Assembly: GCA_003194525.1 (NCBI GenBank)
Contig: NBIV01000148.1
Coordinates: forward strand, 1-64,000
Length of the DNA stretch: 64,000 bases
Direction: 5' to 3'
From: Gracilariopsis chorda
Taxonomy: Eukaryota > Rhodophyta > Florideophyceae > Gracilariales > Gracilariaceae
The notes under the pieces are model-generated. The model was given only the letters and a program-made list of their open reading frames with translations, was not told where the DNA came from and did not search any database. Position 1 is the stretch's first letter. Every line of letters starts with the position of its first letter. A program made the position numbers and the translations under genes. Shown here piece after piece: positions 2,249 to 48,646 of this stretch.

Positions 2249-3928
2249 CTCCCTGCATGTTCCCAGGCCCAATTGGTATTGACAGACCCCCCTTACGCCA
2301 TTCGCTCAGTGCATGGCAGGCCGAACAGCGACTACGACACCCTCACCGTCGCCGACATGAAAGGGGTTACAATAACAATGCGTCGCTTCTTACGTGCTGG
2401 TGGCCACTTCGTCATTTTCTGCTCGCTTGAACAGTTCCCGCGTTGGCATAAGCTGTTGAACAGCGCTGATCCCAGGGAAGCCGATGGTACCGTTGCCCCA
2501 ATGTTCCGCGTGGACCACTGCCCATTGCAAATGATCCGTGCACCGGGTAACAACACCGTGTCGCTGGGCGAGCATTTGGAGAGTTGATACCCATCACCCA
2601 ATACGGGGAGCATGGCGTCAAAACAGGTCTCACTCGGGCGCAAGAGGACAAAAAGGTGAACTACACCAACTTCAGTTATGTCCCGTCCACGGTCACCGCG
2701 TACAAGAACGTCATCGACCGTGTTCCGGCCGTCGATGTGGATGAGCTTCTCATGTGGTCCCTCTACACAGACAGCGGATATGTGAAGCGTGAGGCTGTTC
2801 GTCCAGAACAGAAGCCGATTCGACTCAACATGGAGCTCATTGCCAGGTTCTCCCAACCGGGTGATACGGTTCTTGACCTGTTCGGCGGCACCTTCTCAAC
2901 AGTGCTTCCCTGCATGTCTTTTAAGAAAGGCGAAGCACGCAGATTCGTCGGTTGCGAGAAGGACGAAGCATGCTTCCACCACGCCAGACATTACGCAGTG
3001 AAACAATTCTCAAGGCTCATCGCCGAGAACGTTGCCAGCGTTACCGTCACGCAAGGTTTGGGGGATGCAGCTAACGCGGTGCACAACTACTTTAAGGGAT
3101 ATCTGCGTCCCTCTCGGACTTGGGCAGCCGTGCCAAACTTCCCTCAATACCAAACGCTGCCGGAGCACATAATGTTGTATTGTACCTCTAAATGGCGCGC
3201 ACAGGACTTCGTCAGCACCGGCCTTCACATGGACCTCTCCCAATGGCCCGAGAAGTACCAAGGACTCTTCAACCTAATGAGCGTGAACGAGCTCCGCGCT
3301 CATGAGGCTTCAACGCTACGCCTTATTGTGGCTGAATCAACCATTGTGCACCCGTCTGCTGGGGTTGGCGTTTTTTGCAGGCTGTACGTTCGCAAGAGAA
3401 GAGACAGTCTGCCACTTTTACGGCATGTTGGTATATCACGACATGTCTCAGCGAACCGAAATCCACAAAACATACGGCTCCGGCTTGATGGGCGTTACCT
3501 CACAGGATTTCCGAACGTATTGTATGCAAGTGGACCTCAGGGCTCCGGACTTCAACTCCCTCATCGGACTGAACAAGGAAAAGAAAATACCAAGCGTTTG
3601 GATCTCGCCAGCCCCCTTTTGCGTAGGAGGACTCATCAATGACCCAAGGTACCTCCAGTTGGATCCTGACGCGCAGCCCGTTCGTGATGGTTTCAAACCC
3701 AAACGAACAGCCAATGTCTACGTTGATTGTTCTGCGATATCTGCGCTTAAATTACGTAAGCACCTCGAGCCTTACACTCTGATAACAAACAGAGCTTCCC
3801 GCCGTATAGAACGTGGAGAGGAACTCTTCATCGACTACGGTACTTCTTACGATTGGACCAATAATCTTGGTACCCCTTCGCCCCAAACACCGTCTTCGAC
3901 TTCTACAAAACACAATAAAAACCCCTAA
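2249..3928 (+). pseudogene. DNA methyltransferase (DPPY class) fused to a SET domain, frameshifted
   Basis: The frame opens after a TGA at 2246-2248. DPPY, the catalytic motif of amino-methyltransferases that modify adenine N6 or cytosine N4, lies at 2285-2296. The S-adenosylmethionine-binding motif (VLDLFGGT) follows near 2869-2892. DPPY before the binding motif is the beta-class order. Further on the protein continues into a SET lysine-methyltransferase domain: a GVGVF motif near 3366, GGLIND near 3630, and NRASRRIERGEELFIDYG near 3787-3840. Three frame changes are visible: near 2262 upstream of DPPY, near 2580, and in a T6 run near 3375 where dropping one T restores the SET frame. The run could also be a sequencing error. 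The SET part ends at TAA 3926-3928. The predicted role is DNA and possibly histone methylation. The fusion is seen; the function is inferred. Confidence 0.7.
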
Positions 3929-4486
3929 AAACCCTCTCTCTAACGGTGAAACCTCCTAAACAAATTCCTCAAACCTGCTCCTTTGCATGTGCGTAAGAAC
4001 GTATTACGTAGTCCTGTGCCGTATTGTGGTGTGCACCGGCTCATTGCCACTGTGCGCGTGCGCATGCGCATGTGTATCACCCCACACACAGCACACCTCC
4101 CACCTTATCAAAAAGGCAATTACAGTTTGTGTATGACGTCATGTGTGAACCTAAACGCACGCCCACATATCTCCAGCCGCGCCACCCCCGTTTTCTCTCT
4201 GCACCTCATGGTGTACATGTTTGGCGAGTATTAGTCCCATAGCCTATGCGAGCTCATACTTCCGACGCTGTATGAGCGCGCCAAAAAAACCCACATTGCG
4301 GCGCTTATGCGCAAGCCCCCTCACAATCATCACTACAAAAAGCCCACCAACCTGCCCCTAGTAAACCAATTCCCATCTCTCCCTCTACCCCCACAAACGC
4401 CTACAACTCAACTGCACGCCAAAACCCATCTCTATCTCTCGCTCTGCCTTTCTTCTTATTTCCTTCCCTTCTGCGAGCATACCAAT
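3929..4486. other. Intergenic spacer between methyltransferase-SET and helicase genes
   Basis: Starts with AACCCCTAAAAACCC-type words and runs through AC-rich and CT-rich sequence. I see no supported gene here. It presumably holds the promoter of the gene that starts at ATG 4487. Confidence 0.4.
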
Positions 4487-5137
4487 ATGGACAACCTCAC
4501 TTTGCATAACCACTCCATAGGAATGGACTCTATCCAGCCTGGTCCGGCTCTAAACGCGAACACACCACAATCCAACCGTCCCAACCCCAACGCTACCGCC
4601 ATTACCTCAACATCAGCCGGGCAGATCGCGGATAAAGAACGAAATGCATCTCCCTCCTTCACCAACCTGCTCGACACCGTTATCAACCTTGCCATTCACT
4701 CCATCGGCTTCTTCTTCCTGTGCATCAACTGCGAATCTGGCAACCCCTCGCGACGTGCCGTGCGCTATCATCTCAGAAAGGCACACTTCCTCCACCAGGA
4801 AGAGGCTCGCAAAGCATCCGACATCATGTGGTCCCGCAGAACCGAAATGCTTAAGCAGAACAACCTCCCCCCGCTATGGAATTCGTATGGTCCGGAAGCG
4901 CCGAGCCAAAACGTGGCTGTTCTGCGTCCAATAGCGGGGCTGCAAATATTGAATGGCTACCGCTGCGCGCAGTGCACCTCCTGCTACATTGACCTTCAGC
5001 GTCTCTATTATCACATCACAAACACACATTCCAATCACGCGCATTCGGTTTCTTGGCTAATAGAACAAACATCGAAGCAAAGCACCATAAAAGTGCAAAC
5101 CAAATTCGGCGCCCTCGTTGTCTACTGTTTGCGGTGA
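4487..5137 (+). pseudogene. Part 1 of zinc finger-recombinase-RecQ gene: DUF3505-like C2H2 zinc fingers
   Basis: I chose ATG 4487 because the stretch from 4307 is a low-complexity pyrimidine run that does not look like protein. Two zinc-binding clusters follow. One has the form C-x2-C then H-x4-H (FLCINCES ... HLRKAH). The second is GYRCAQCTSC with a spaced H ... HITNTHSNH. Between them PIAGLQILNGYRC matches my memory of the fungal DUF3505 (orsD-type) family, which occurs N-terminal to RecQ-like helicases. The frame stops at 5137, and the conserved part resumes in another frame downstream. Either a frameshift or a short GTGAG...CAG intron (about 5135-5207) could explain the break. The family call rests on remembered patterns. 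Confidence 0.5.
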
Positions 5138-6682
5138 GCTCCGCCTCCCCCGTTGGAACCATAAGCAAACACCTTCAACTGCCTATCCGAGCGGTAAACA
5201 TTCTGCAGCAACCCCTTCTACCCCAAAACCTCCAGTCCCAACCCCCGGCACCGATACTGCCACAGCCCAAGCAACCCCCCAACCCGAACATAAACTCCAG
5301 ACACCGACAAATACTGCAACCGGAACACAAAACCGAAAAAGCAGTGAACAACTTCTTCACAAGCTTAAGCACCTCACATATCCAAACCAATCATCTGCAT
5401 CTGCAACCACAAGCACAAGAAAACCCAACTTCTTCATTGCGTGTACCAAGCTAGACATCATACCCCAGTCTGTTTCTGGCAGCCTCAAGGACGCAACCAT
5501 ACTCACAAATCCCACATGTGCAAGTGACATCGATGCAATGGCTGCTATGACCAACGATGTTTTCATGTACCTCACCAAAGCTCCATTTCTCATGTGCACC
5601 ATTCCGCCACTCTTTCTCCAAAAGCTCAACCAACGCTCCGACAGCAACTTCCGCAGCGTCTCGAAGGACACGCTCAAACGCTACGCCTCTGATATTGCCA
5701 GTCTCTTGCTATTCACAAAAAAGGGCCACGAGCATGACGTCAACCTGGTTTCATAAGCGCAAAACACTACGGCCTACCTCCACAGCGTTAGCCTAAGACC
5801 TACACTCCTACACAGCGCGCTCACTGTCCAGCTTTGGAGACGCTTCCCCCGTATGCATCTACGCATACAATCACTGTGGGCAACTTCATTGCGGCCGCTT
5901 CTGTGCTGGTTCACAACGCCGAAGATGCCATCAACCAACATGACGAGCGCTACCGCTATGCTAGTGCCGACGAGCTCACCCATCTGCTCGCCGCTGTCCA
6001 ATACGGAGTCGCAGCATGCGCCATCCATCACGTGCATAACCTCACCAAGCAGCAAGGAAAAACCCCTCATCAGCCTACTTCCGAGATGCAGCAAGTGGAA
6101 TTGTCGGTTGACGTGCAATCAAACAATGCTTTTTCTTTCTTCTGCAACACTCTCAGCTTTGCTATGAACATCGCCACTAAAGAAAGCATCAACGTATCGT
6201 TCTTGGACTGCGATATGCACCCGCACTGCGGCATCGTTCGCGATATTCACTTGGGTCTGCCCGCGCTCGGCTCTATCGTCAAAAAGCTCCATGCCGAAAT
6301 TCAAGACATCATCATTGATGATCTGCTATTGGGATCTCCCTTCCCCCCTGCATTCTCGAGCCACATCCACGCACTAAAAGACCAACCATCAAACAAAAAC
6401 CCCGGGTTTTCCTTCCTCCAACACCCGCACAATGGCTCCTTTCTACACACCTGCTTGCAGTATGTACTGCAATGCCTAAAGAACCCATCCGGAAACACAT
6501 CGCACCATTCGCTCAAAGCTCCCTCGCCACCACCCAACGATACCCCCACAGTCCTTATTCCTGGTATCCACTTCTACACATCTGCTCACCCGCTGGCTCG
6601 CATGCGCACAAAAAGTCCAGGAGCGCCTCCTCGTCGTTCTCCACCTTGCCTCCGGATCCCCAGCTCGCGGAACCGAGATTGA
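5118..6682 (+). pseudogene. Part 2 of zinc finger-recombinase-RecQ gene: linker and N-terminal recombinase region
   Basis: Two frames continue the gene: 5118-5756 and 5834-6682. The first begins in Pro/Thr-rich linker, then becomes helical (LTKAPFLMC ... TLKRYASDIASLLLF), and ends at TAA 5754-5756, after which the same frame stays open. The second holds a long helical region and a PGFSFLQHPHNGSF motif near 6400-6441. From memory that motif is shared with the fungal DUF3505-RecQ proteins just upstream of their recombinase-like core. The frame changes again between about 6480 and 6594. At least two frameshifts lie in this part unless introns are involved. Confidence 0.4.
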
Positions 6683-9260
6683 GTCGTATCGTCTGCACAA
6701 CGATTTGTTCCACCAACGCTGCCTCATACTTCTCGACTCTCAACCAGTTCTCATCACGCGTTACCTCAAGACTTAAAACGCTAAAGGAGGCGATCGCCCA
6801 ATTCCACGCTTCCCAGATCCAAAGACAACTGAACTCCTTCGCACTTACCTGAAGCTCATTCGCCCGCTCGAAACCTGGTTCGTTTCGGCTATACACGGCG
6901 AAACCCATGAACAGGCACACTGGCGTATGTTGTTCTCAACCCACGGCATGCCCCTGGACGCTCGAAACATTCACCGAATCATCAGCTCCACTCTGTTCGA
7001 CGCTGGGTTTGAACTCACTTTTGCCGACTACCGCAACTTCACAGTAGGAATCACCGCTATCATGTCCTCCACAGCCGCAAACGACATTGACAAAACGCTC
7101 CCCAAGGCCATCCTGGAAGAATTCATCTCCACCGCGCACAATGAAGCTGGGCACACGACACACACTGCGGAGCTCATGTACGCACGCACCCCACACGACG
7201 TCAGTGGAATGCGACACACCGAACTGAGCAAGTACAAAGAATGGTCCACCAAATGGCACTCACTACTCAATTTGAGCAAACACGCCGCAAAGAAGCGCTC
7301 TTGTCGTGACACTCCTCAACACCAGAGCACCACCCCTCCCGCCAAGCGCCTCATTCCCGCATCACAACCCATCTCACCTCCACACCGCCCTTACAAACCG
7401 CCGAACGACGTGTTTGCACCCCTGGCCCGCCCATCTTCCCTACTCCACAGCCGCCCAACCACATCCGTGCACCCAAGAGGTGGTGTATCGCTCCATACAC
7501 GCCCACCGCTCAATTACGAACAAAGACTCGGCATGTTCCTCAACGCACTCCGACAAATGCTTGCCAATGGCTCCTCAGTGTTTAAATCACCTCCGCATTT
7601 TACTGTTACGGTGGCGGTGTTTGAAAAGCGGGGAAACATGCTTATGCTCACTCCCACCGCCTCCGGAAAAACATTGTCTGTACTGCTCCCGATGTACATG
7701 GAGAAGGGCTCATATTCCTCCATCATTATCGTTCCTCTCAAAGCCCTCCTTACGGAGTACGAAAAACGTGCGGCAGCCTTTCAGCTTCAGAGCAGCACAT
7801 CCCCGCACACCAATGGCGGCACGGAAACATTTGCGGATGTCTATATATTGTCAATCGAAGTGCTTGACTCCGCCTCTTTCAACTCCCTTCTTCAACGCTT
7901 GTTGCACAAACAAAAACTGGCCCGCATCGTGGTGGATGAAGTGCATTTATTACTGTTTTGGCAACACTTTCGCCCATCCCTTGCACACATCCACAATGCA
8001 CTTTCCATGGTACCCCCCCATATACCCCGTGTCCTGCTCAGTGCCACCGTGCCGCCCCGCGATCGTCCACTCCTGCTATCACAGCTCTCAATACCAACAG
8101 CTTACCTGTATACCACTTCCACCACCCGTAACAATATCCACTTCTCCGTGTACGACGCTTCCCCAAGCGTAAAAGCCCCTCGAATTCGTACTGCCGCAGG
8201 TACCTATCAAAGCTTGTTACAACATCTGCTTAAGACAGGCGTCCCGTACTTCCAAAAACAAGTCTCAACATTGCTCACCGCAAGTACTGAATCCTTGGTC
8301 CGCATCATCCTATTCACACTCACACGCTCAGCTAAAGAACAACTACGCCGCGTCATTCACCAATATGTACAAGGAACATTATCTCACCAGTTCCCTTCTA
8401 CATCTTTCATTTGCCTCTTCTATGATGCCGGATTATCCGACCACGAGAAGGATAAAACACACGAAGACTGGCTCCATCGCTTCTCCGTTCCGCCATCCGC
8501 TGCCGTACCCCAAACCGTTATTTTCATGACTTGCACTTCCGCGTTTGGAACAGGACTCGACACTCCAAACGTTCGGCTAGTGCTACTTTTTGGAGGATGT
8601 GCCAGTCTGGCCGACCTTGCCCAGCAGGCCGGCAGAGCGGGTCGTGACGGCCGAAACGCGCGCTGCATCACCATGTACTCAAAGCCGTACTTCAAAATGA
8701 TACAAGATCTTCTTTGCTCTACAAACAACCAAAACCCCAACTACATCGCCCGTTCTTATGTCGAATCGCTTGCCACAGACCGCTGGAACCAAGTGAAGAC
8801 GTGGATGGAACTGACGCTCGTGTGCCGCCGTAACGCCCTTTACGCCCACATTGATGGAACCGAACCAGGCGTTTGCTTATTCACCGAAGACGCTGTGAAC
8901 TGTGACATTTGCGAAAAGAACTCCGCAATTTCCAACCCGTTTCCCACCGCACCTACCCAAAACACTTCTACCCTAAAAACACCATCACAGCCTGCAAAAC
9001 CCACACCCTCCCCTCCAAATCAGACACCTATATTCTCCACAGGTACCACCTCTCTTGACATGTCACCCTTCATCCTACCGGAGCCAAGCACAAACCTTCA
9101 GATGCCGTCATACAATGGTTCTCTACCATCGCTAAAACCACTCCCTTCGGCGTCTGCAGCCGCCAATTCAGTCAAACGCCTAAACAACAACCTCCTCTCG
9201 TCTTCGCCGCCCTTCATCACTTCTTTCTCTTCTTCAGAGCGGCACACCAGCTTGCTTTAG
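6549..9260 (+). pseudogene. Part 3: tyrosine-recombinase-like core joined to RecQ-family helicase
   Basis: A single frame from about 6549 carries LHLASGSPARGTEI with Arg at 6666-6668, then RYLKT and an in-frame TAA at 6774-6776 where related proteins have a polar residue. It continues with DYRN (Arg at 7032-7034) and AGHTTHTAELMY (His at 7152-7154, Tyr at 7179-7181). This R ... R ... GH ... Y layout is that of tyrosine recombinases; the usual His after the second Arg is Asn here. From about 7600 the same frame encodes a superfamily 2 helicase: Walker A TASGKT near 7662, DEVH near 7935, SAT near 8040, and the RecQ-type motif VI QQAGRAGRDG near 8620-8650, followed by a short NCDICEKN zinc-type cluster near 8900. 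The frame meets TAG at 9258-9260. The helicase call is firm. The recombinase call is my own motif reading. Confidence 0.75.
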
Positions 9261-9842
9261 TCTAACATTTCCGCTTCCTTTTTTTATCGGATCAACTCCA
9301 TTCCCCCCGCTGGTATTGTGCGCCACATTCAGGAGATAGCACGCCGTCTCCACTCTTTATGCGTTCCGTGTCTTTTCCAAGTTCAAACTCCCGTAACCAA
9401 GGAAAACCATGTATGCTCCTATGCATCCATTCGATGCTATCGATGCTTCTCGGACTCGCACCACGCGGTTGAGTGCCCACACAACAAGAACCCACCCAAG
9501 ACCTGCTACAAGTGCCATATGGGATACTGCAAGGGACTCAAGACCCATTCAGATCCCAAAACATATGGTACTCGGGCATGTGAGTTTATCCCACAGCGCC
9601 AGACTGCATGGCTTCTCTGGCGCAAACACCCAGATATGCGCAACACCATTGCACTCAACCTCTTTGACGAAGAACGCAACTCTCAGTTCAACAATATTTC
9701 TACGAGCAGTACATCCGAATCCGCTAAACTACAGCAACGAGACCAACTTTTCCACTCCTGGTTGACGACAACAGACCGCAGGGCTGTTCCCAACCTTATA
9801 CGCGTCATCACTTGGTACAAATCTACAACTGATCATGTATAG
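9261..9842 (+). pseudogene. Part 4: C-terminal zinc-knuckle region of the RecQ gene
   Basis: This stretch is in exactly the same frame as the helicase and is separated from it only by TAG 9258-9260. It encodes a CCHC zinc knuckle (CYRCFSDSHHAVEC, spacing C-x2-C-x4-H-x4-C) near 9438-9480 and a second Cys-rich stretch (CYKCHMGYC) near 9510. A polar C-terminus follows, ending at TAG 9840-9842. Continuity of frame across the stop suggests it is the tail of the helicase protein rather than a separate gene. A separate small nucleic-acid-binding protein is possible but there is no good ATG. Confidence 0.55.
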
Positions 9843-10012: not shown

Positions 10013-10190
10013 ATGCATATACAACAGGAAGAAGTCCTGTCGTACATTCACAGGGTGGTCGCTCGACCCCTACCCTCCAAAAAAACTACTATTTTTTTGC
10101 TGCAGTGGTCGAGCGACCACTACGGTCATGTACGACAGGAAAACTTCCTGACGTATATCGCCGTGGAGGTCGAGCGACCCTAAAACACCC
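10013..10190. repeat. Double-hairpin repeat (right copy)
   Basis: About one and a half units of the family seen at 1-410: an ACAGGAAGAAGTCCTGT hairpin, GTGGTCGCTCGACC, an A/T-rich spacer, then GCAGTGGTCGAGCGACCACT and a second ATGTACGACAGGA hairpin whose right arm is decayed. It lies 170 bp after the end of the helicase gene. Confidence 0.85.
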
Positions 10191-11364
10191 CAAAGTCTCC
10201 GAGTTCGGTATTCCCATAGCCACGCCACTATCTTCTAAACTTAGCACAGCACTACTTCCTAATGAACACCGCCTACAGCGGTGCACATCGAAGCATTCCA
10301 ATTAAAAACCCCTAACACAAACCGTGCTCTGCATACCACTGCACACGTCTGCAGCACACAACGCCCACCCCCTAAAGTCGAAAAAACCCCTTCACAACAG
10401 CACATGATACGCAAGACAATTCTGTTTCTGTTAACATTCTGCAACCCCTAGAAACCCTTAAAACACTAATAAAATAAAACCTAGGAATCTAAGTGCAACC
10501 CCCAAAGTGTCTAGAAGTAAAACCCCTAATACCAATATACCCCCTAGAAAACGCCTAGACTCAATCGCAAAAACGCCCCTAAAACAAAACCCCTAAATAC
10601 AAAAATTGGGTAGAACTTGCATTTCTTAAGTGTACGGCCAATCACAATTTCTTTAAAAACATTAAAACTCCCCTCCACGGAACACAAAACACCAAAATCC
10701 AATACCCGCAACACAAAACGCCAGAACCCACTAAAACTAAAAATAACGTTTACAAAAACCCCTAAGACGTTCTAATCACATTTTTCTACGTCTAGAGAAC
10801 AAGGCCATATACACGATTTTTTACATCTTGCAATTTTCATTATTCAAAGTCCAACCTTTAATACTCTGACACATCCATAATCAAGAAAAGTGCAGCTTAC
10901 CAGGACGGAAGCGGCTAAAACCTTGCCAAGCGAACAAATATACAACCCTAGCACCATGTAGTGCTAATCCTTTAAAACGACATCCCTGCTCCCTAAAACC
11001 CCTAATAGGGAAAACGTTCTTATCAGTTTTAACCCCCCCACGGTACCTCCATACAAAAATTTTGTACCTCTCTTGTTTTTCTCCAACTGCACCTAAAACA
11101 ACTAGAACCTCCTAACATTGCCATAGCAAGGGAATACAATAATATATAACATTTCCTAATGCTAATATATTCCCGTAAACACACTTACATTTAAAAACCC
11201 TAAACTTTATTATGAATGTCCTTACAATAACATAAAACCTTTCTTAATGCTAAGAACGCCAAGGCATAAACCGCTAGATTTGAAACCCCTATTTTTTAAT
11301 ATCAAGGCTCTTCATTCTTTCTCCGAGGCTCCCTAATAAAAGTCGGCTTCGTCTCATTTGTTCC
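10191..11364. other. Non-coding zone with scattered CCCCTAA words
   Basis: I see no gene. AT-rich sequence is studded with at least ten copies of ACCCCTAA or close variants (for example near 10303, 10366, 10444, 10525, 10574, 10750, 10993, 11172, 11284), always on the same strand. They are not in tandem. They resemble degenerate plant-type telomere repeats (CCCTAAA), but the periodicity of a true telomere is missing. Confidence 0.5.
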
Positions 11365-12119: not shown

Positions 12120-12450
12120 TGCCCAACTACGCTACTTATACGACATGCACGCGGCACGTGCCATATATGGCTTAAACCAAGCGCAAACGGCGATGTCAAA
12201 TCCTAATTTTTTGATGTATGTGCTTGGTTTTTAGCCGAACCAAGCATTCTATAATATTCAGCCAGGTTTTCTGAGCTCAAGCGTTTGTTTTATAACCGGC
12301 GCACAGCGCTTCGTCATTTACCGAAGGCATGAAAAACGTACATACAGCGATTCCTCCACTCGTTCAACGTTTTGCGTCAGAACCAAGCGCTTGCCGACAC
12401 CCCTCAAAACCAAACGCAAACCCACTCTTACATGCAACACTACTATAAGA
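12120..12450. repeat. 330-bp dispersed repeat, copy 1
   Basis: Runs from an ACGACATGCACGCGGCAC core through AAACCAAGCGCAAACGGCGA, TTTTAGCCGAACCAAGCA and CGTACATACAGCGATTCC to a CACTACTATAAG end. A clearly related copy in the same orientation is at 20820-21145, on the far side of the Helitron. A more diverged partial copy ends at 13147. Confidence 0.8.
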
Positions 12451-13149
12451 CGTTAAAACCTGTAGCATACATAGGACACCATGTAACCGTAAACTTTCAA
12501 AGCCAATGTAAAAGCCCTAAACTCTATTATAAAATCCGCTACTATAGAACTGCCTCCCTTCCGAAGCGTAATGAAAGCTAAAACCACGTATCCAACATGA
12601 ACAAGCCATTCTTATCCCCCTAAAAAAACGCAAAGTGCTAAGAACACTCTGCAAAGCCCCTTATGTCTCAGAAGCGAAGACAAACGCAGCTCAAATGGAG
12701 CATTTGCGATTCACTTACACACGCATAACCACGTGCACGCGTCTGACGGAATACGCGAAAAACGTTGTCCTAGAGCACGTTCATTTTGGCACGGAGCATG
12801 CCTTTACGTACCTCGCAAACCCATTTCTGTGGTGCACGCACCAGGCACGTGCCAAAGCCTTCCAAAATCATGTCCTAGGGGCGGTGGAAAATATTAACTT
12901 TTTGAACCCAGGACAATGTTTTGCAAAATGCTGTCCTGTATAATCTGTGTCCACATTTTTCAGCCCGTCCGGAATGTATCATACAGTGCCCACAGGACAA
13001 CGTCCTCCACACAAGGGGTCAAAAATGCACATACACGCGCATACAGCGTTTCCATCACTACGTGAACGTTCTGTGTCAGTACCATGCCCAAGCCGACACC
13101 GCCTAAAACGCTGTCCTAGCCCATACTTACAAGTAAAACTACTATAAGC
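12451..13149. other. Non-coding spacer before the Helitron
   Basis: No supported gene. The last ~120 bp (about 13030-13147) is a diverged copy of the 3' part of the 330-bp repeat, ending in ACTACTATAAG. Several short inverted stretches built on AGGACA/TGTCCT occur near 12910-13010. Confidence 0.5.
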
Positions 13150-14710
13150 GGCACTCTACATTCATAAGACCAAGGTCCATGTAGCCACTCTCATCGACAT
13201 TATCCGAGTCAAACAATCGATGGAGGACATTTCGGTTCTCGCCTTCAGCTTCAAGACGCTGTTGTCGATCAGCTGTGCTCTCGAGCTCTCGTTATGCCTG
13301 TCTAGATTTTCTGTCAGAGTGACAGCGAGAATGTTCAGCAGCGGGGTCATCCTGTTGCCTTGCAGCACGATGGGCGTCACGATCGTTTGCCTGACGGTTT
13401 GCGCGATTATGTGGCGTCTCTGAAGCTCGTGCCGAAGCAGTGGTTGTACGCTCGGCCTCACGAACATCATCAGTGTGCGCAGCGGAAACTAAAGCACTAC
13501 TTCTTCGCGCACGTTCCTTATTAAATGCTCTTCGTGCTTCACGCTGTTTCTCAGTTTCATTTGCCCTCCGTAGGGGTGCTCGCTCTCTATCACGACGTCT
13601 CCTCTCTGCCTGTTGCTCACTGGACTCTGCTCGACGTCTTGCAGCAGTACGTTGACGGTTCTGCTCACGTCTGGCATCGCCTGAAGCACTGGGCTGAGTT
13701 GGAGGCATGGTAAAAAGAACGTAAGCACTCCACACAAAAGGATAACTGTCCAAAGACCGGCAAAGCAAAAAAATAAAAGAAAGAAAAAAGAAAGAAAAGG
13801 ATATGGTCGAGAACATTTGTGCTACGGGCTGCCAAACCCTTTTATGCACCTAGCACCGAAGTTGTGGATCGTTGCAGCGAAGATAGAATATCTTGACCAC
13901 AAAGAAACCGCCTAGATTGGGAACTGACCTGTACAGAGTGAACAGGGGGCCGTGCGTGGAGAGTCTGCCAGGACTGCGAGATTTACAATACCAAAATCGC
14001 TAGGCAGCTCTGTGCTGGACGTACTTTTGTCCGAAGACCGTTTCCCCTTAACAGTTCCTTCGATCCAGACAGAGCCGTTGTTGCTCGACTCGTACTCTGT
14101 TGTCCCCTTTCTAGACTCATCAAGGGCTACTCCTTCCGCGCAAAGCACGTTTTGTGGGGAGCTATCGTACCTCACGTGAAGGCCACCCAGAAATAGTTGC
14201 CGAACCAATTAAATCTGGATGACGAACGCGTTGTTTGGTGAGAAAGTTAAACTTAACAGATCCCACCGGTACCGCCAGCGTACCTTTTTCAGACGTTCTG
14301 ACTCGCCCAGAGTGCTAGAACCCACACTGTAGGTTAACCACAGCGAAGGAGAACGCGAGTGCTCAGTGGGCAGGTGCATTGCACGCTTTTGTATAGCGTG
14401 CAATGCGATTGGTGCACATGACCGTTGAAAAATAGTAATTAAAACGGTCATGTGCACTGCACTGCAACGGCTCGGTTACTGTAGTGTAACGGGTGTGCTA
14501 CTGTAGTCAAATGGCTAGGCTACTGTGGCGTGCAAACGGCGCCAGGTGGAAAGGTGTCCCATCATGCGGTGCAAGATGCCTCTTGGAGCGCATAAAATGC
14601 CACGTTTCCACTTGGCAGCCTCCTTGGCGATTTTTCAGCCAATGAGTGGGCGTTAGCTGACAGACACACAGACAGACGGACAAACATTGTCTTTAGTATA
14701 AGTGGGGGGA
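13150..14710 (-). mobile_element. Truncated Helitron copy (5' part only)
   Basis: About 1.54 kb matches 19235-20775 at a constant offset of 6085 bp with no indels. I counted about nine substitutions, or roughly 0.6%. It carries the Helitron 5' end, reading TCCCCCC...CTAAAG on the - strand from 14710. It also carries the first part of the RepHel ORF (13292-13849) up to the same in-frame TAA found in the long copy. It stops abruptly near 13150, so the Rep and helicase domains are missing. Its 5' end abuts the 3' hairpin of the long copy, giving a head-to-tail arrangement. Confidence 0.8.
14376..14456. repeat. Pair of strong hairpins in Helitron 5' region
   Basis: Two perfect stems in succession: GCATTGCACGC (14376-14386) with GCGTGCAATGC (14396-14406), and TGCACATGACCGTT (14413-14426) with AACGGTCATGTGCA (14443-14456). 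The identical pair occurs in the long Helitron copy at 20461-20541. They lie about 250-330 bp inside the 5' end, upstream of the RepHel start. Confidence 0.85.
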
Positions 14711-14724
14711 CAAATGGCTCCATT

Positions 14725-14739
14725 GCGTGCTTCGCACGC
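14725..14739 (-). other. Helitron 3' terminal hairpin
   Basis: Stem GCGTGC / GCACGC with loop TTC, read identically on the - strand with loop GAA. It lies downstream of the RepHel stop at 14901 and 14 bp from the start of the next Helitron copy. Confidence 0.65.
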
Positions 14740-14900
14740 GTTAAGGAGTGAAAGAAGCATTAGAGTGAAAGAAGTATGTGGGTAGCGTGTTTTGGGTAGT
14801 TGTTTTGTAGAATGCAAGTATTTTTGGGGAGTAAGAAGGGAGAAGAAAAGAAAAAAGTGAAAGAAAAAAGAAGAGGTTTACTTAAAGCTATCAAGTTCGT

Positions 14901-17900
14901 CTACAAAAAAAATTCGGGGTACACTACATTATTGGTAGAGGTGCTACCGGCAGGGAGACAGGCCACGATGTTGGACGGGTTGGTGGTCCGAGAAAAGGGG
15001 ACGTACAGCTGGCCATGCGTGAAACAGCCATCACGCAAATCCAGTCCGATGTGACCACTATACGACTCACCCTGTGCCTTATTGGTAGTGATGGCAAAAC
15101 AGACACGTACTGGGAACTGGGTGCGAATGAAGTTGGGAACCGGAAAGTTGTCGTCTCCAGGTCCACAGGGCATGCGCGGCAGGCATAGTGCGTTGCCACG
15201 ATTTACTCCAGAAGCGAGTCGAAGAAACAGTACGTTGCTTTGCATGTCTTCTACGGTATAGATGGCACCATTGACGTGGCCGTTTGAGGGATCCAAGTTG
15301 GGAAGGAGCATAACCACAAAGCCCTTTTTGAGTTTGAAGCGGTGGTCGGGCAGCGCTGACCCGGCAGTCAGAGTGTTGAGCATCTCGACAGGGTACTGCA
15401 GCGCGGCACCATCGTCGTCGCTCACTTTGTCCGCATTGAGGTACGTACGATACGCTCCAGGGTTCATGTGGCCTACATAGTCGTTGCCCTCTGGTAGGCG
15501 ATAGTTTCGTGCGGTTATAATCACTGTTGACGTTAGCCAGTCTGTATCTATGTACCTTTGAGCGATACCATGAAAGACCATACGGACCATGGTGCGGAAC
15601 GACTCCACACATTGTACGGACTCTGGCAGGGTGAAGGCGTGCTTTGGCGGGACAGTGCCTGGTAGTCGGCCCTCTCCAATCTGCAAGAGCGTGTTTGGAA
15701 ACTGCAGTGCCTCCTGTGTCGCTGTGGGGTCTCGACAGAGCGCAGAAAGGCGCATGTTCTCAGTAAATCTCAAGGTGCGAAAGTGAGAAAAGAGACTTGA
15801 GCGTTTGATGCAGGCGTTGACGATCACTGGTCGAGAGCCGCCACGAACAACGGGGAGAATCTGCCGAAAGTCGCCAGAGAGCAATACGAACTTGCCTCCA
15901 AAGGGGAGCTGCGAGCGCGTTATGTCACGGAGAGTGCGGTCTACGGCTTCAACGCAGAAGCGATGACACATTACGATCTCTTCCCAGATAATGAGGTCGA
16001 CGTTCCTCATCCAAGTGGCCAGGTGGGAGTTGACTGGGATGTTGCACGTGCTCTCAGTGGTGGCTGGGATGGGAATCCTAAACACGGAGTGGGCCGTCCG
16101 ACGGCCCTCAAGCAGTATGGCTGCTACAGAAGACATGGCTACCGTATGGACGGGCTTGCCACGAAGGCGTAACGTGGCTTGAATTGCCTTGGAGAGGAAG
16201 GTCTTGCAGGTTCCACCCGGAGCATCCAAGAAGAAGACGCGAGTGGTTGGCTGCGTTGGCGTAGAAGGACCACCAAGACTCTGCAAGCTCTCCGCGGACA
16301 CGCCAGGAAGGATGGCCTACACCACGGTATTAAACGCCAGACGCTGACGCTCATTGAAGAAAGGGAGGGTAGCTTGCCCATTGTCGTTCAGCTCCGACTG
16401 GACTTGCTGTGGAGACCGAGCTGGAGCGCGCATTTCCGGTAGGTCCTGCATGGGTGTCCGAAGACCGTACGATGACAGAGACGCCAGTGGGCCACCCATT
16501 TCTTGCAATGCCTTTTGTAATTCTAAGAGAACGTAAGAGCTGGCTCTTTCGTCGTCGGCCAGTGCGTGCATCATGCCGCGATGTCGAGCGCGTATATCCT
16601 GCAGGAACATCGATATATGCTGCTCCCACAGAGAACGGGGGTCCGACCGCTCGCAGTAAAGCAAGATGGTGGAAAAGAAATGAGAGAGCGGAACCAATGA
16701 GGAGCGATAGGAATCGCGTAGTGCCTGTGTACACTCCCTGTCGTCGGCGAGAAGGCCCATCTTGAAGCAGGCCTCCCTGAGGCTACCACACTGCTGACCA
16801 TTCACGTTGCGGAGATGCTGAAAGGAAGTAGCACCCGCTTTGTGGGTGAAGAGTAAGCAGAGGTAGTACCGCTCACCCTCTCGTGGACTGGCAGTGTAAA
16901 TGCGCCCAACTACATGCGCACCGCGGCCTGTAAAGTCGTATAGATCGGCTGCTGCAGCGGCCGCTGAGGAGGAGGTGGGCTGGCTTCGAGACACCGAACG
17001 ACGTCGGAGACATGCACGCGGCTTCCAGCATTTTTTTGATGTTTTCCAAGTAAAGTACCTCTGGAACTGGGCATAAGGGATATGCTGTCCACCGGGGTAC
17101 CTTTGGTTGGCCACAAACCACTCATTCAGCTTGGTTCCTGCCCGCTCTCTGTTAGCAGCAGAGTGCTCGTCGCCTTCTCGGAAGAACACCGTATGGTGGC
17201 CTTCCAAGTGTACTTCAAGCCACACGACGGGTGGATTGGGATCGACAATGTCGAACGCATGCATCCGCCACACTGCTTCAGAGGCTGACACATACCGTGC
17301 GTCCTGGAAGTTCTGGATCTCGTCATGGCGGTAGTTCTCATCTACAATCTCCATGGTGACTCTGTCGGAACCCTTGCACACATACTTGAAGAGTTTCTTG
17401 ATACCGCCAAGTCGCGATACGCATAGCTCAACGTTGATGTGGCATGCAAACTGGCAGAGACGCTCTGGGCAATGTGAAACCACCCACGAATTGTCCGACG
17501 TCATTACGCGCTGTCGACAGCCGACACTGTAGCTTCGTTCCACAGACACCCTGCCCTCGAAGGGAGCGCGTCTTTGGTAGCTGATGTAGTACTCATTCTC
17601 AAGCCGTGCAGTTTCGGAGTGAAAAGGCTTCGGAAAGTGCTTCAAGCAGGTCAGCTCGCACATGCAGAGCACTAACCGGTTGCCTGCACCGCACGGAGTG
17701 TGAATCATGTGCCTGAGCACCAACTCTTGTAAGTTGGCGTCGGAGGAAGGAGGAATCTCAGCTGAGATGAGCTCGTCAATGTGAGCAGGGTCTCGGAGCT
17801 GATGCTTTGCATCTTCGTTGAGGAAGAAGATAATGTGTGCGTACGGTAGGCCTCGCTTTTGGAACCCAATTACCCGCACGTGAACAAGAACGGCTGCAAA

Positions 17901-19793
17901 GAACTGTTCATCAATGACAAATGACATCAAGGCTTCCATCTTGAGACGAAACACTCGAGCACAGAGATTTGGTCGATCGGGAGTGTGCTGACCATCGAAC
18001 AGCGCCCTGTTTATCTCAGGCCAGTTCGGATTGCACGTCATCGTGAGAAAGATATCCTGGTGCCCAATGGTTTCGGATATGGCAATGATGTCGTGCATTT
18101 GCTTTCTAATGTATCGGTCACCTCCAACAAATGTGGAGGGCAACACGAGCATTCGTCCAGCGCGAACAGCATCGGCCTCATCCACGCCCAGCAGAGAGTC
18201 ACCCAGGCTCTCCCGCAGAGATGTATAGTACGCAGCTCGAAGTGCTTATTGGTTGTGTGGTAAGTAAGACAAACGCTCCGACTCAACCTTGCAGAACTGG
18301 TCGAGCATGTAATGCTGGAAGAGCCGTTTGCCGCGTAGAATCGTACTGAGCTTGGTCGGTCTCTCGAAAATCTGCCACGAATAATACATCAGCGGAGTCG
18401 CCTTCTTCTCTCGCGAGGCGTTTGGTGGGCAATGCCTCATCTCAGGGTGCCATCCGTCCTGGCCACATGGGAACAAAAGAACGTAGCTCAAGGGATCGTA
18501 CGATCTGTGACTGACCGAGATAGTGTCTAGCACCTCATCACCATTTACAGTCAGCTCTCCACGCCTACGCACAACAATATCGCGCGTCCCAGTCTCGCCA
18601 TCCTCATTCCCTGGAATGATGGTGGCTACTTGCAACGCCTCGGGCCCGTTGTAGCGACGAACATGCTCGCCGCGGGGCCGTCAATCAGCATGAATCACTA
18701 TCTGATACGTAGTTGCTGACGTATTGGTGATAGCCCACTCGCGCAGGATGCAGAATGTCTTCACGTTTGGATTTCCCGTGTGCAGCATGGCTGCCAACTG
18801 AGACAGGAGTTCCGGTTGAAGGTGGGGCAGCAACCCCGCTCGCCTCGCAGACTGTGCGTCATAGTCAGTGTCATGGATGTACACAGACAGAAATTCGGGC
18901 TGGACACCCTGAGTGGGAATGAGGAGACCCATGTAGTGATAGATCTGTCCCTCCATGGTGATCGTAGGATTGAAGGTAGAGTCTCCTGAACCACGGCTCA
19001 CCCACTTTGCCTTGACGGAAGCCATAGACATAGCGGTGTTGTAGGCACGGATCTCAGCACGAAAGTGGTTCTCTTGGGGCCCAGTCGCAGTCAGCAGTTG
19101 GCGAAGAAGAGGCGGAGGCTCCAGAAGTGCAGGGACGCTCAGATGCCCCTTTGCGATGCACTGCAAGAAAAGAGGTTGCGAGTGGGAGCTGCTCAAAACC
19201 TATTCCTCTTTGTAATGCAGAGCCTTGCAAAAGCGGCACTCTACATTCATGAGACCAAGGTCCATGTACCCACTCTCATCGACATTATCCGAGTCAAACA
19301 ATCGATGGGCGACATTTCGGTTCTCGCCTTCAGCTTCAAGACGCTGTTGTCGATCAGCTGTGCTCTCGAGCTCTCGTTATGCCTGTCTAGATGTTCTGTC
19401 AGAGTGACAGCGAGAATGTTCAGCAGCGGGGTCATCCTGTTGCCTTGCAGCACGATGGGCGTCACGATCGTTTGCCTGACGGTTTGCGCGATTATGTGGC
19501 GTCTCTGAAGCTCGTGCCGAAGCAGTGGTTGTACGCTCGGCCTCACGAACATCATCAGTGTGCGCAGCGGAAACTAAAGCACTACTTCTTCGCGCACGTT
19601 CCTTATTAAATGCTCTTCGTGCTTCACGCTGTTCCTCAGTTTCATTTGCCCTCCGTAGGGGTGCTCGCTCTCTATCACGACGTCTCCTCTCTGCCTGTTG
19701 CTCACTGGACTCTGCTCGACGTCTTGCAGCAGTACGTTGACGGTTCTGCTCACGTCTGGCATCGCCTGAAGCACTGGGCTGAGTTGGAGGCAT
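14901..19793 (-). pseudogene. Helitron RepHel protein (HUH Rep plus PIF1-type helicase), five in-frame stops
   Basis: One uninterrupted frame of about 1630 codons from ATG 19793, with an Arg/Glu/Ala-rich N-terminus. A Helitron zinc region follows (CRFCKALHYKEE near 19203-19240), then the Rep domain with GLPYAHI near 17836-17856 and a KYVCKG motif near 17380. The first His of the HUH motif is Tyr. The PIF1-like helicase has Walker A GGTCKT (normally GGTGKT) and a degenerate Walker B (IIWEEI). The C-terminus is of the SRTTNPSN type. In-frame stops: TAA 19377-19379, TAG 19200-19202, TGA 18681-18683, TAA 18246-18248, TAG 16317-16319. No frameshift is seen. The protein would nick and unwind DNA for rolling-circle transposition; this copy is inactive as written unless stops are read through. 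Confidence 0.85.
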
Positions 19794-20460
19794 GGTAAAA
19801 AGAACGTAAGCACTCCACACAAAAGGATAACTGTCCAAAGACCGGCAAAGCAAAAAAATAAAAGAAAGAAAAAAGAAAGAAAAGGATATGGTCGAGAACA
19901 TTTGTGCTACGGGCTGCCAAACCCTTTTATGCACCTAGCACCGAAGTTGTGGATCGTTGCAGCGAAGATAGAATATCTTGACCACAAAGAAACCGCCTAG
20001 ATTGGGAACTGACCTGTACAGAGTAAACAGGGGGCCGTGCGTGGAGAGTCTGCCAGGACTGCGAGATTTACAATACCAAAATCGCTAGGCAGCTCTGTGC
20101 TGGACGTACTTTTGTCCGAAGACCGTTTCCCCTTAACAGTTCCTTCGATCCAGACAGAGCCGTTGTTGCTCGACTCGTACTCTGTTGTCCCCTTTCTAGA
20201 CTCATCAAGGGCTACTCCTTCCGCGCAAAGCACGTTTTGTGGGGAGCTATCGTACCTCACGTGAAGGCCACCCAGAAATAGTTGCCGAACCAATTAAATC
20301 TGGATGACGAACGCGTTGTTTGGTGAGAAAGTTAAACTTAACAGATCCCACCGGTACCGCCAGCGTACCTTTTTCAGACGTTCTGACTCGCCCAGAGTGC
20401 TAGAACCCACACTGTAGGTTAACCACAGCGAAGGAGAACGCGAGTGCTCAGTGGGCAGGT

Positions 20461-20541
20461 GCATTGCACGCTTTTGTATAGCGTGCAATGCGATTGGTGC
20501 ACATGACCGTTGAAAAATAGTAATTAAAACGGTCATGTGCA
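20461..20541. repeat. Pair of strong hairpins, long Helitron copy
   Basis: Exact counterpart, at +6085, of the two hairpins at 14376-14456. Confidence 0.85.
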
Positions 20542-20819
20542 CTGCACTGCAACGGCTCGGTTACTGTAGTGTAACGGGTGTGCTACTGTAGTCAAATGGC
20601 TAGGCTACTGTGGCGTGCAAACGGCGCCAGGTGGAAAGGTGTCCCATCATGCGGTGCAAGATGCCTCTTGGAGCGCATAAAATGCCACGTTTCCACTTGG
20701 CAGCCTCCTTGGCGATTCTTCAGCCAATGAGTGGGCGTTAGCTGACAGACACACAGACAGACAGACAAACGTCCGCTTTAGTAAGGGGGGATGTCCAAGC
20801 ACCCATGAAAATCCGAAAT

Positions 20820-21145
20820 GGCTAATTACACGACATGCACGCGGCACATGCCATATATGCCTAAAGCCAAGCGCAAACGGCGATATCAAATCCTAATTTT
20901 TGAGGTTTGCGGTTGGGTTTTAGCCGAACCAAGCAATCTATAAAATTTAGCCTCGTTTGTTGAGCTCAAGCGTTTGTTTCATGACCGGTGCGGAACGCTT
21001 AGTCATCCACTGAACCCATGAAAAACGTACATACAGCGATTCCACCACTCGTTCAATGTTTCGCGTCAGAAGGAAGCGCTTCCTGACACCTCTCAAAACC
21101 AAGCATAATACCAAACGTACTTGCACCACTACTATAAGCATATCA
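20820..21145. repeat. 330-bp dispersed repeat, copy 2
   Basis: Related to 12120-12450 over its whole length and in the same orientation, sharing CATGCACGCGGCAC, AGCGCAAACGGCGAT, TTTTAGCCGAACCAAGCA, CGTACATACAGCGATTCC and the CACTACTATAAG end. It starts about 30 bp outside the Helitron 5' end, so the Helitron pair lies between direct copies of this repeat. Confidence 0.75.
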
Positions 21146-21188
21146 AGGGAAACGTGTGTGAGTCCGATGGCGGGCTGCTCCTCAGAAA

Positions 21189-21944
21189 TCATTTCAAAAA
21201 CCGGTAGAAGGGCAGACACTCCTGCTGGTTTAGACTCAAATCAGCAAAACGACGAAACTGACGTGTGTCTAACCTCCCGATCACCTCGCTCGACTTCAAT
21301 ACACCCGCCAATTGTGAAGGGCTAATTTCTTCCACAACCACTCCATATTCTACTTGTACAGTGCCTACCGTGCTGATTGTGGATTGTACGCGATCTGCAA
21401 AGCGCGTCCTCAGCACGGCTGACGAGATATCATTCATTAATACTCCAAGACGAAGAATCTGACTTGGAGTGAGGTCCTTACCATCTTGCCTGTTCCACAT
21501 CAACACGCTCAAAACTTGCGAGATCTGCCGCCACAACTCCGATTTAGCATGCCAAAGCCGATGTGTAATTCGACGGTACCTGCCATCAACGAGTTCAACA
21601 CGTCAAACAATGCGCCTGTTCTCCACTAATCCGTTCTCCAAAAGACGCACGTCAGTGTCTACCGTAAAACTCATCATTCCACACGAATACAGCAAACCCT
21701 TCGGTTCAAAATGCTCTTCCAGTTGCTGCAAATGATTCTCACTTACACCACACGGACTGAAGTGAGGATCATCAATGAGGTCTAGATCAATTGTATATTC
21801 CTGTACTTCATAATCACTAAAGCTGATATGTTCGTACACATTGCAGGTGCCTATATCCACCAATGGCTCAACATCGCCTTCGCTGTACAAAGAGCGTGGG
21901 TTCACACTACTCTCCGGCGCCACCGTCACCGCCAAAGTTTCCAC
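21189..21944 (-). pseudogene. Unrecognised protein, one in-frame TGA
   Basis: One frame of about 250 codons runs from ATG 21944 (METLAVTV...) to the stop at 21189, broken only by TGA 21603-21605 (NRRIV-stop-RVELVDG). The part after the stop is as protein-like as the part before. It is acidic at first (YEVQEYTIDLDLIDDPHF), then mixed helical. I recognise no domain. Its start overlaps the end of the next upstream ORF by 19 bp in another frame, so the two could be parts of one spliced or frameshifted gene. Confidence 0.45.
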
Positions 21945-22963
21945 CTTATCACTTCACCTCTCTGGTGCGCAGTACCTCGCCCAGAACTACAGAGAGCAGT
22001 ACCAGGTGACGCGAATGACATGCGCTCCAGTTGGGATTCGTCTTCTCCATCCCCTCCACGCACCATTGCTGGCAACGAAAGCGGTGGCATGGGCGGTAAG
22101 GTGTTGGTGCTGGCTACACCAGGCGCACGACGCGAGGTGACTGCACGGCTCATACTGCCATCTGCAACGCTATAGAATCCAGTGGCCGGCCTACGTGCCG
22201 AGTGTGTCCCAGCATCCCGACCAACCGCACTATAACTCGACACTGGCGCTATTTTTGATGTGCGCATCATAGCGTGTGACCCATAGAACGGCGCTGTACA
22301 AGACTTTGATAAGGAACGCGTCGTCGAACTTTTCCACTGTACAAAAACGGTGCGGGCTGGATTCTTCATGATTGAAGGTCGAGTACCCGTATTAACACTG
22401 CTTCTAACATTCGCTCTCGTGCCACTAGCCCACAGGGATTCCGACACAAAACTTCCGCCTGATACCGCTCTCTCTGAACTACTTGCCTTCGTAATTTGAG
22501 TTTTCAATGCCACAGAACCTGATGAACTTCGAGGCAGACGCATCAACTTTAAATCGCACGCCACAAACAGTCTACCATGGATATCAGACAAATGCTTTGG
22601 TAGTTCTTCGCATCGCTTGAAGGAATAAAGGTACTCTGTGCCACGGAAGTCTGATATCCTAACGGGGTGCATAACCACCAGATCCTCGTTTGGCTTCGAG
22701 ATCTCCGAAATAGCATGCTCATGGAGCGTACGTCTAAGCTGCCTATCACGCCAGAACAAAACGACCTCACCAGCAACCTTCCCATCCGCGAAAAGCAATG
22801 TCACTTCTTCGCTGGCCCTGAAGGCGTGTGCATTTTGGCCGTATTCAGCTCGCTGGGTTTTCGTTTCAACTTGAAGTACAAGAAAAAAGGACAGTTTAGA
22901 ATAGGGGGAAAGAGGCGATACAGGGAATACGGATCGATACCCAGTTAAGAGAACAACAAACAC
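21926..22963 (-). CDS. Unrecognised protein with Ser/Arg-rich C-terminal half
   Basis: A 345-codon frame. The first ~30 residues are hydrophobic and may be intron or upstream sequence. Residues ~35-140 look folded, with beta-rich segments (GEVVLFWRDRQLRRTL, DLVVMHPVRISDFRG). Residues ~145-345 are low-complexity Ser/Thr/Arg-rich. No catalytic motif is recognised. It lies between a Cys-rich ORF upstream (22945-23262) and the 21189-21944 ORF downstream, all on the - strand, suggesting one gene in pieces. Confidence 0.4.
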   Translation of the reverse strand: MFVVLLTGYRSVFPVSPLSPYSKLSFFLVLQVETKTQRAEYGQNAHAFRASEEVTLLFADGKVAGEVVLFWRDRQLRRTLHEHAISEISKPNEDLVVMHPVRISDFRGTEYLYSFKRCEELPKHLSDIHGRLFVACDLKLMRLPRSSSGSVALKTQITKASSSERAVSGGSFVSESLWASGTRANVRSSVNTGTRPSIMKNPARTVFVQWKSSTTRSLSKSCTAPFYGSHAMMRTSKIAPVSSYSAVGRDAGTHSARRPATGFYSVADGSMSRAVTSRRAPGVASTNTLPPMPPLSLPAMVRGGDGEDESQLERMSFASPGTALCSSGRGTAHQRGEVIRWKLWR

Positions 22964-23262
22964 GCGGCGAAGTTGTAGAATGTGGCGACTGGTTGCAACT
23001 CTCGAAAGCCATCCACGAGAAGTTCATGGCGCCCGCAGTTTTTAATCTCACATTTACAAATCTCAAAGGCAGCTGGCGCACTGCAGAACGGTGTATAGTA
23101 AACGGTTATGTCCCCTGCCACGTAATAATGGCTCCTCGCAAAATTCATGCCACACGCTGCGCATTCATAATCAAACAAAGGATAGAAAGCCACGGTACAA
23201 TAAGACCTGCTTCGTATGCCTTTGAGCCCTGAATTTCTGTAACAGCCCTGAACAGCGCTCAA
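22945..23262 (-). CDS. Cys-rich ORF, unrecognised
   Basis: About 105 codons with paired cysteines (YECAACGMNF, then CSAPAAFEICKCEIKNCG) that could bind zinc. There is no good ATG at the start; an AG acceptor near 23250 would allow it to be an internal exon. It overlaps the start of the 21926-22963 ORF in a different frame. I do not recognise the family. Confidence 0.35.
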   Translation of the reverse strand: MSAVQGCYRNSGLKGIRSRSYCTVAFYPLFDYECAACGMNFARSHYYVAGDITVYYTPFCSAPAAFEICKCEIKNCGRHELLVDGFRELQPVATFYNFAACLLFS

Positions 23263-23282
23263 TCATTCGCCCACCTCTGCAC

Positions 23283-23475
23283 GTTCGCACATGTACGACA
23301 GGAAAAAGTCCCGTCGAACATGGCTGTGCCGGTCCCTCAACCACTGGCGCCCCAAAACAAATTGTAATTTTTTAGCATGCAGTGGTCGAGTGACACCCAC
23401 GGCCATGTACGACCACTGGCGCACCGAAAAAATACAAATTCTTAGCCTGTACTGGTCGAGCGAGGCTCAACCTCA
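23283..23475. repeat. Double-hairpin repeat (third cluster)
   Basis: Nearly two degenerate units of the family at 1-410: ATGTACGACAGGA with a partly decayed right arm, AATTGTAATTTTTTAGCATG, GCAGTGGTCGAGTGAC, then a second unit lacking much of the first hairpin. It lies just outside the group of - strand ORFs at 21.2-23.3 kb. Confidence 0.8.
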
Positions 23476-37776: not shown

Positions 37777-37781
37777 AATGT
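37777..37781. repeat. Target-site duplication AATGT (left)
   Basis: Five bases immediately before the left LTR, repeated at 49472-49476 immediately after the right LTR. Confidence 0.9.
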
Positions 37782-38606: not shown

Positions 38607-38618
38607 TATCCCCCCCCT
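38607..38618 (-). other. Polypurine tract
   Basis: On the - strand AGGGGGGGGATA directly precedes the LTR, the expected site and composition for plus-strand priming. Confidence 0.8.
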
Positions 38619-38662
38619 AAGACGGGAAAACGACCGCGGACGCGGAGGATTCCCAGACGAAA

Positions 38663-46349: not shown

Positions 46350-46366
46350 AAAGGAGACTCCCTCAG

Positions 46367-48643: not shown

Positions 48644-48646
48644 CTT

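Follow-up and report, generated by a model that had tools for sequence, protein, structure and literature searches.

Why RecQ helicase genes lie next to telomeres in so many fungi has remained open, and a locus in the red alga Gracilariopsis chorda raises the question of whether such a gene could itself move chromosome ends. The window studied here consists of the 64,000 nucleotides at positions 1-64000 of contig NBIV01000148.1 (C148; other contigs are cited in the same way), and the genome searched comprises 91.3 Mb in 1081 contigs. A preliminary description of the window had recognized a tyrosine-recombinase-like core fused to a RecQ helicase, and had proposed a class of helicase-assisted tyrosine-recombinase elements. 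We find that the gene belongs to a repeated unit much larger than itself, the copies of which have an exact 3' end. By a narrow balance of the evidence, we favor a telomere-ward element whose recombinase-helicase joins this 3' end to an AG in the chromosome, so that the distal arm is replaced, through a chemistry that we infer.

Domain structure of the gene and decay of the window copy

The gene lies on the forward strand and begins with an OrsD region (4487-5137) that carries two C2H2 zinc fingers (4721-4786 and 4964-5029). The match to Pfam family PF12013 (E 4.4e-7, in 4235-5137), which we take to be the former DUF3505, agrees with the DUF3505-like fingers described ahead of the core. The middle part of the decayed gene (5792-6682) has no Pfam domain. 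Translation from 6549 recovers the proposed R..R..GH..Y layout: the core (6549-7260) contains an arginine at 6666 in PARGTEI (an RxxE arrangement), a lysine at 6768, an arginine at 7032 in DYRN, the histidine of a GH pair at 7152 and a tyrosine at 7179. The open stretch from 6777 to 9260 encodes the end of the core and the helicase, with the RecQ motifs TASGKT at 7656, DEVH at 7935 and QQAGRAGRD at 8622. The helicase assignment is borne out by Pfam (PF00270, E 3.8e-16; PF00271, E 1.1e-8) and by phmmer matches to BLM, RECQ5 and bacterial RecQ chains in the PDB (best E 1.4e-22). The C-terminal part (9261-9842) contains the CCHC knuckle, at 9435, that had been noted after the core.

The window copy is decayed and contains no intact gene, as it is interrupted by stop codons and frame changes. 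A TAA at 6774-6776, inside the core, splits the first arginine and the lysine from the remaining core, a TAG at 9258-9260 splits RecQ from the knuckle, and the OrsD region is in a different frame from the R..Y core. The idea that a single reading frame holds all of the domains is thus incorrect for this copy. The relatives keep the same domain order, with OrsD and C2H2 fingers followed by R..K..R..GH..Y, RecQ and CCHC.

A repeated element with an exact 3' end

Searches of the genome with the core gave 57 tblastn matches, some of which are pieces of one copy, and positions 9000-9842 gave 26 DNA matches. Most family A matches, among the best 40 of 196 candidates, end at or a few bases from window position 12449. 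Of 20 stretches read at this position, 17 terminate in ACTATAAG, beyond which the DNA differs between them. The copies have an exact 3' end, with a motif ending in TACTATAAG. The pattern TACNNGNAANNCTACTATAAG occurs 51 times and the backwards-read pattern 0 times; TTACNNGNAACACTACTATAAG, with up to 2 mismatches, is found at 91 places, as against 2 in the control.

In the window, this terminal motif (TTACATGCAACACTACTATAAG) and the exact 3' end of family A are at 12428-12449 on the forward strand. On the same strand, the family B 3' block (12455-13148), which is found near B copies, has its own motif with the same end letters at 13127-13148. A further 3' end (20821-21138, motif at 21117-21138) is directly joined to a 5'-truncated remnant of another copy (21139-23413, also forward). 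The terminal motif is common to families that otherwise differ, including a 9.8-kb tandem array in C140, and its 22 bp are a candidate binding site, as judged from this conservation. The array of about 9.8-kb units occurs at C140:125783-175799 and in C888, and its units bear the 3'-end variant TTACGGCCAACACTACTATAAG.

We read 57 of these 3' ends and searched 250 bases of flank against element references that are partial; the 57 rows contain repeats, namely two identical C140 flanks and seven similar C435 joints. Five loci (L079, L081, L121, L122 and L125) gave no row because the end differs or is uncovered. Element sequence follows directly at 23 ends and is 5'-truncated there at many different internal points, and several contigs hold head-to-tail series of the element. 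At 31 ends, two of them identical rows, the flank has no match to the partial references over the 250 bases. At the remaining three, the element match starts later: from base 16 in C338, after telomere-like repeats; from base 31 in C343; and from base 130 in C165, where the match is weak and antisense. The flanks are not all single-copy, as 6 of the 24 tested have other genomic copies (among the best 40 of 577 candidates).

No fixed 5' end pairing with the 3' end was found in the copies read, in which interior copies were not read to their 5' ends. C378 and C49 start alike at C378:5515; this point was considered as a 5' end and dropped, as an open frame (L084 4901-5599) crosses it. We also withdrew a 'composite block' with a common inner junction in C148, C133 and C193, since C148 and C133 do not have the same A-to-B joint. 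The genomic copies therefore define one end of the element, and paralogous unoccupied sites, but not the pair of ends that had been anticipated. The 150 nt before the 3' end show no unusual folding (z -0.68), and no poly(A) or simple tail is present at that end.

Alternatively, the element may be a Crypton-like circle with two fixed ends that is 5'-truncated later through deletion and chromosome breakage. We regard this as highly improbable: the tyrosine-recombinase-like core and the short bases shared with the target fit such a circle, but no 5' end was found to pair with the 3' end, and the copies read enter telomere repeats or other elements instead.

An AG dinucleotide precedes most of the joints compared

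The flank beside the B end (13146-14698, forward) has a second, unoccupied copy at 19231-20783 on the same strand, and the two are 99.2% identical over 1553 bp. The unoccupied copy reads GCAAAAG and then CGGCACTC, and the occupied one TATAAG and then CGGCACTC. Five more joints have unoccupied copies; for a further twelve, in which element meets element, the comparison was with elements that are intact at the same point. In these 18 clear joints, AG lies directly before the joint in 14, G in 17 and AAG in seven, where about 1 AG is expected; no joint has an AG that ends one or two bases to the left of this position. Given an AG frequency of 0.058 in the window, the binomial probability is about 1e-14, a figure to be read with the caution that the comparison copies were chosen by the analyst. 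Joints counted once were the similar ones of C435, and C193:137841 with C138:47380, which have a common position. Four ambiguous joints (C70:67790, C133:193962, C232:100320 and C148:12449) stand outside the 18, and with these added the AG count is 16 of 22. Apart from the AG, the only target signal seen was a weak excess of purines at +1 (37 of 50).

From these alignments, the joint appears nearly to require two bases common to the element end and the target. Site-specific recombinases require shared bases in their overlap; primer annealing could be an alternative cause of the two shared bases.

The exact edge and the AG bear on the simplest alternative, that this is an ordinary telomere-linked helicase repeat spread by homologous recombination or break-induced replication, whose R..Y residues belong to an N-terminal extension that is conserved but has no recombinase activity. 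The available parts of the reports (PMC7473861, PMC10532341, PMC4522978) describe RecQ genes in the subtelomeres of several fungi. The position of the element is likewise subtelomeric, and sequence searches reveal no recombinase. Homologous exchange alone, however, leaves unexplained both the single exact edge on 31 stretches dissimilar to the element references and the AG directly before 14 of 18 joints, and we consider this alternative rather unlikely.

Orientation toward chromosome ends

The 3' ends fall into 39 clusters, and 30 of these have their 5' side turned to whichever contig end is nearer (p 0.001). The telomere repeat of this genome is (CCCCTAAAAA)n; of 20 contig ends that were read beside clusters, on their 5' side, seven begin with it. 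Three exact units of the repeat occur 115 times, and 0 times in the control. For at least 61 of the 100 such places that were listed, a contig end is no more than 1.1 kb away, in contigs of known length. This repeat is unusual in that CCCCTAAAAA has a variable run of A. TTAGGG telomeres were considered and rejected, as a three-unit search of the assembly gave 0 matches. In C60, C232, C306 and C159, the telomere repeats run into a 5'-truncated element, and in C627 they are followed by sequence that, judged by homology to C378, reaches a 3' end (C378:24080) after about 24 kb. C9 and C345 have the same telomere-adjacent sequence. These contigs, together with the cluster orientation, fit the earlier remark that genes of this kind are often near telomeres. 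Contig breaks in repeats may favor the element at contig ends, yet they do not explain the single orientation. In the window, scattered CCCCTAAA-like repeats in left-telomere orientation were noted at 10300-11350 (forward) by reading and by CCCTAA counts.

The geometry would also be expected if element RNA were copied onto chromosome ends, from its exact 3' end, by a reverse transcriptase supplied in trans, as for HeT-A, with incomplete copying causing the 5' truncation. This explanation fits 3' ends that are exact and 5' ends that vary, as well as the head-to-tail arrays and the telomere-ward 5' side, and the two shared bases could aid priming. We nevertheless find it unlikely, in that a reverse transcriptase domain is absent from the 18 open reading frames (ORFs) of the repeated unit (10 + 8), which is still compatible with supply in trans, and in that poly(A) or a simple 3' tail is lacking.

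Conservation of the core and comparison with tyrosine recombinases

Relatives from the same genome were aligned in two sets, A1 (13 rows) and A2 (16 rows), the rows being chosen by a pattern demanding R, E, G/C-H/N and Y. By their approximate identity to the window, they form subfamilies A (mostly 82-90%), B (48-55%) and C (37-44%). The first R (with E three later), the K, the second R, the H of GH and the Y nine later are identical in the consensuses of all three subfamilies. Identity across the three consensuses extends to 66 of 197 core columns, and five given columns would all be identical by chance with a probability of about 0.004. We recounted 36 stretches found by tblastn or position, independently of the motif and including the window and many decayed copies. 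The first arginine is kept in 29 of the 30 aligned, the lysine in 31 of 35, the second arginine in 33 of 36, the histidine in 32 of 36 and the tyrosine in 35 of 36. The proposed catalytic positions are thus conserved in homologs that were not selected for them, and a chance motif is rejected. The possibility of a unique host gene was also rejected.

We compared the core with a combined profile of 78 viral integrases with Cre, lambda, TelN and fungal rows. The local alignment (score 29.6, P 0.0019, Prob 14, 134 columns) pairs both arginines, the GH and the tyrosine with their counterparts. None of 60 column shuffles reaches this score locally (maximum 22.6), and 2 of 60 are as high as the global score of 9.5. 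The reversed alignment scores 12.0, other parts of the same protein 14 to 20, 60 other viral ORFs (of 191) at most 25.0 and 40 shuffles at most 25.4. With single groups left out, the score is 31.6 without Cre, 39.3 without lambda, and 28.0 and 31.3 without the fungal sets; 29.6 is the primary figure, and 39.3 is the best of six leave-outs. By subfamily, B scores 21.6 and C 31.5. Taking the conserved residues and this alignment together with the negative searches set out below, we think it probable, from sequence comparison, that the core belongs to the tyrosine recombinases. A tblastn search of viral contigs found no relatives, and the phage records gave four matches at chance level.

The combined score falls from 29.6 to 22.8 without TelN, which would suit a telomere-resolvase-like enzyme that makes or repairs chromosome termini by processing the palindromes of an array of 112-bp units. 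The array (1-409, forward) consists of a 112-bp palindrome-rich unit (GTGGTCGAGCGACCAC; CATGTACGACAGGA-5nt-TCCTGTCGTACATG), and the element extends further 5' of it in other copies. These palindromes, the terminal position and the GH-Tyr spacing, which by reading is nine in both the core and TelN, also fit a resolvase. We judge it very unlikely all the same: the TelN profile alone gives no match, the contig ends bear (CCCCTAAAAA)n, which suggests telomerase, and among the compared joints only that of C236 falls in the array. There, a B-type 3' end is directly joined to an array of the 112-bp unit. Further partial copies of the palindromic unit lie 3' of the gene (10016-10179, forward), so that the unit, seen at 1-354 upstream, flanks the gene on both sides, and it is also present at 23290-23413.

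Proposed mechanism of end joining

Tyrosine recombinases leave a 3'-phosphotyrosine, and RecQ moves 3' to 5'. In the telomere-ward element that we favor, the OrsD-recombinase-RecQ-knuckle protein would bind the conserved 22-bp terminus, and its catalytic tyrosine would cut after TATAAG, holding the DNA as a 3'-phosphotyrosine. The held element end would then be joined to a chromosomal 5' end at AG, with the shared bases serving as the recombinase overlap. RecQ, moving 3' to 5', may begin at this element end to open the strand. The element and its telomere would take the place of all sequence on the telomere side of the target, via arm exchange or copying; multiplication of the element would require copying. 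Joining at AG in one step, with telomere-ward loss or exchange, would account for a 3' end that is exact and a 5' end that is missing, for older elements that are cut off and for the distal telomere. If this is true, a single protein, the 22-bp end and an AG target would suffice to test it. The helicase-assisted element first proposed survives in its conserved residues, moderate profile support, many copies, exact 3' ends and unoccupied sites; in the copies read it does not resemble a typical two-ended transposon, and the window copy is broken.

Several results weigh against this reading. Searches of Pfam, PHROG and PDB with the core gave chance-level matches only, and a narrow profile of the 78 viral integrases, chosen by the motif LRHTFATH, gave no match (Prob 0.2); the confident match to tyrosine recombinases that had been hoped for did not appear. 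The same profile gives Prob values of 93 for Cre, 95 for lambda Int, 63 for a fungal element recombinase, 10 for TelN and 2 for a second fungal recombinase. Column shuffles equal the core score against it in 32 of 60 local and 56 of 60 global comparisons. With HMMER, 14 longer members score within the range of 326 shuffles, as do TelN and L126, and hhalign of the core with TelN, Cre, lambda or the two fungal recombinase sets, each alone, gives no match. In addition to the drop without TelN, the combined score falls to 15.6 without the 78 viral rows, and with subfamily A alone, the window's own, it is 18.3. The position three before the second arginine is Ala, Asn or Thr instead of the usual His.

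Other counterpoints concern the junctions. Nine of the 39 clusters are oriented oppositely, and at C355:1-1584 telomere repeats adjoin the element in the opposite orientation. Four of the 18 joints (C70:69760, C59:8753, C96:180289 and C435) lack AG, C59 and C435 being scored so despite mismatches in the first one or two flank bases. The ends in C338 and C222 adjoin telomere-like repeats, the unit of which has no AG on that strand. Finally, the link between the gene and the making of the junctions is one of association only.

Other features of the window

Two ORFs inside the repeated element precede the gene on the forward strand, one with an N6_N4 DNA methylase domain (2551-3642; PF01555, E 3.6e-8), in a region repeated in other copies, and one with a SET domain (3287-3928; PF00856, E 1.1e-4). 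These ORFs (2551-3928) are carried by the element and may be chromatin cargo. The far 5' part of the long copy in C378 (L084:4169-4900) has a weak Ulp1 protease match (E 0.015, under the curated cut-off), and this stretch may be cargo or part of another transposon.

The window also contains a Helitron on the reverse strand (14901-18245), with a Helitron_like_N domain (16317-18245) and a PIF1 helicase (14901-16316). The stretch 13427-16000, which overlaps it, is tandemly repeated in C144. A long terminal repeat (LTR) retrotransposon with reverse transcriptase, RNase H and integrase occupies 37781-49474; its LTR-like ends lie near 37781-38606 and 48647-49474. The element copy in C49 carries a relative of this retrotransposon as an insertion.

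Comparison with known systems

Crypton and DIRS elements move by a tyrosine recombinase and have both ends defined, no RecQ and no telomere-ward polarity. Their catalytic layout and short shared joint sequence are like those described here, whereas the copies read here have a fixed end on the 3' side only. Two fixed ends with internal insertion were not seen in those copies, among which the interior ones were not followed to their 5' ends. Starships are large fungal elements with a DUF3435 captain tyrosine recombinase, cargo genes, two ends and internal insertion. The present element resembles them in its large size, its probable tyrosine recombinase and its putative cargo; it differs in that their captain has no helicase and in that they have two ends and insert internally.

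Helitrons combine an HUH nuclease, which forms a 5'-phosphotyrosine, with a 5'-to-3' Pif1 helicase. A strand-cutting enzyme with a helicase, and no target duplication seen, would be common to both, and the polarity proposed here is the mirror image. Rep and Pif1 are absent from the element ORFs scanned, and the 3' end has no marked fold (z -0.68).

The HeT-A, TART and TAHRE retroelements of Drosophila stand in for telomerase repeats and form 5'-truncated head-to-tail arrays on chromosome ends, with the 3' end centromere-ward. The geometry is the same here (fixed 3' end centromere-ward, head-to-tail order, 5' truncation; 30 of 39 clusters). Unlike these retroelements, the present element encodes a helicase with a recombinase-like core, and the repeats that lie outside it are simple telomere repeats. 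If our reading is correct, it would represent a tyrosine-recombinase mode of mobility with a single fixed end, a DNA counterpart of the chromosome-capping retroelements of flies.

The features of telomere-linked helicases, a RecQ domain, many copies and a position near telomeres, are all found here. The available parts of the fungal accounts describe UTASa and UTASb of Ustilago maydis and the subtelomeric RecQ genes of Agaricus bisporus var. burnettii; they note OrsD for UTASb, and the helicase core as the sole domain of the Agaricus helicases (PMC7473861, PMC10532341, PMC4522978). Many subtelomeric RecQ copies, and OrsD in UTASb, are shared with the window gene, which possibly belongs to the same family. 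Those accounts, in the same parts, name no recombinase part, exact edge or target, unlike the element here. In open-licence PubMed Central titles and abstract beginnings, we found no description of an OrsD-recombinase-RecQ protein or of such junctions. Helicases of this kind are already known; what appears to be new is the recombinase-like core, together with the exact edge, AG as the target and the reading as end replacement. We suggest, tentatively and with more doubt than confidence, that the element moves whole chromosome ends through a tyrosine recombinase-RecQ fusion that joins its 3' end to AG and replaces the distal arm, as a mirror-image Helitron and an ancestor of the fungal telomere-linked helicases. 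If RecQ genes do drive such an end-joining element, they would provide a concrete enzymatic cause for subtelomere turnover, arm loss and telomere capture.

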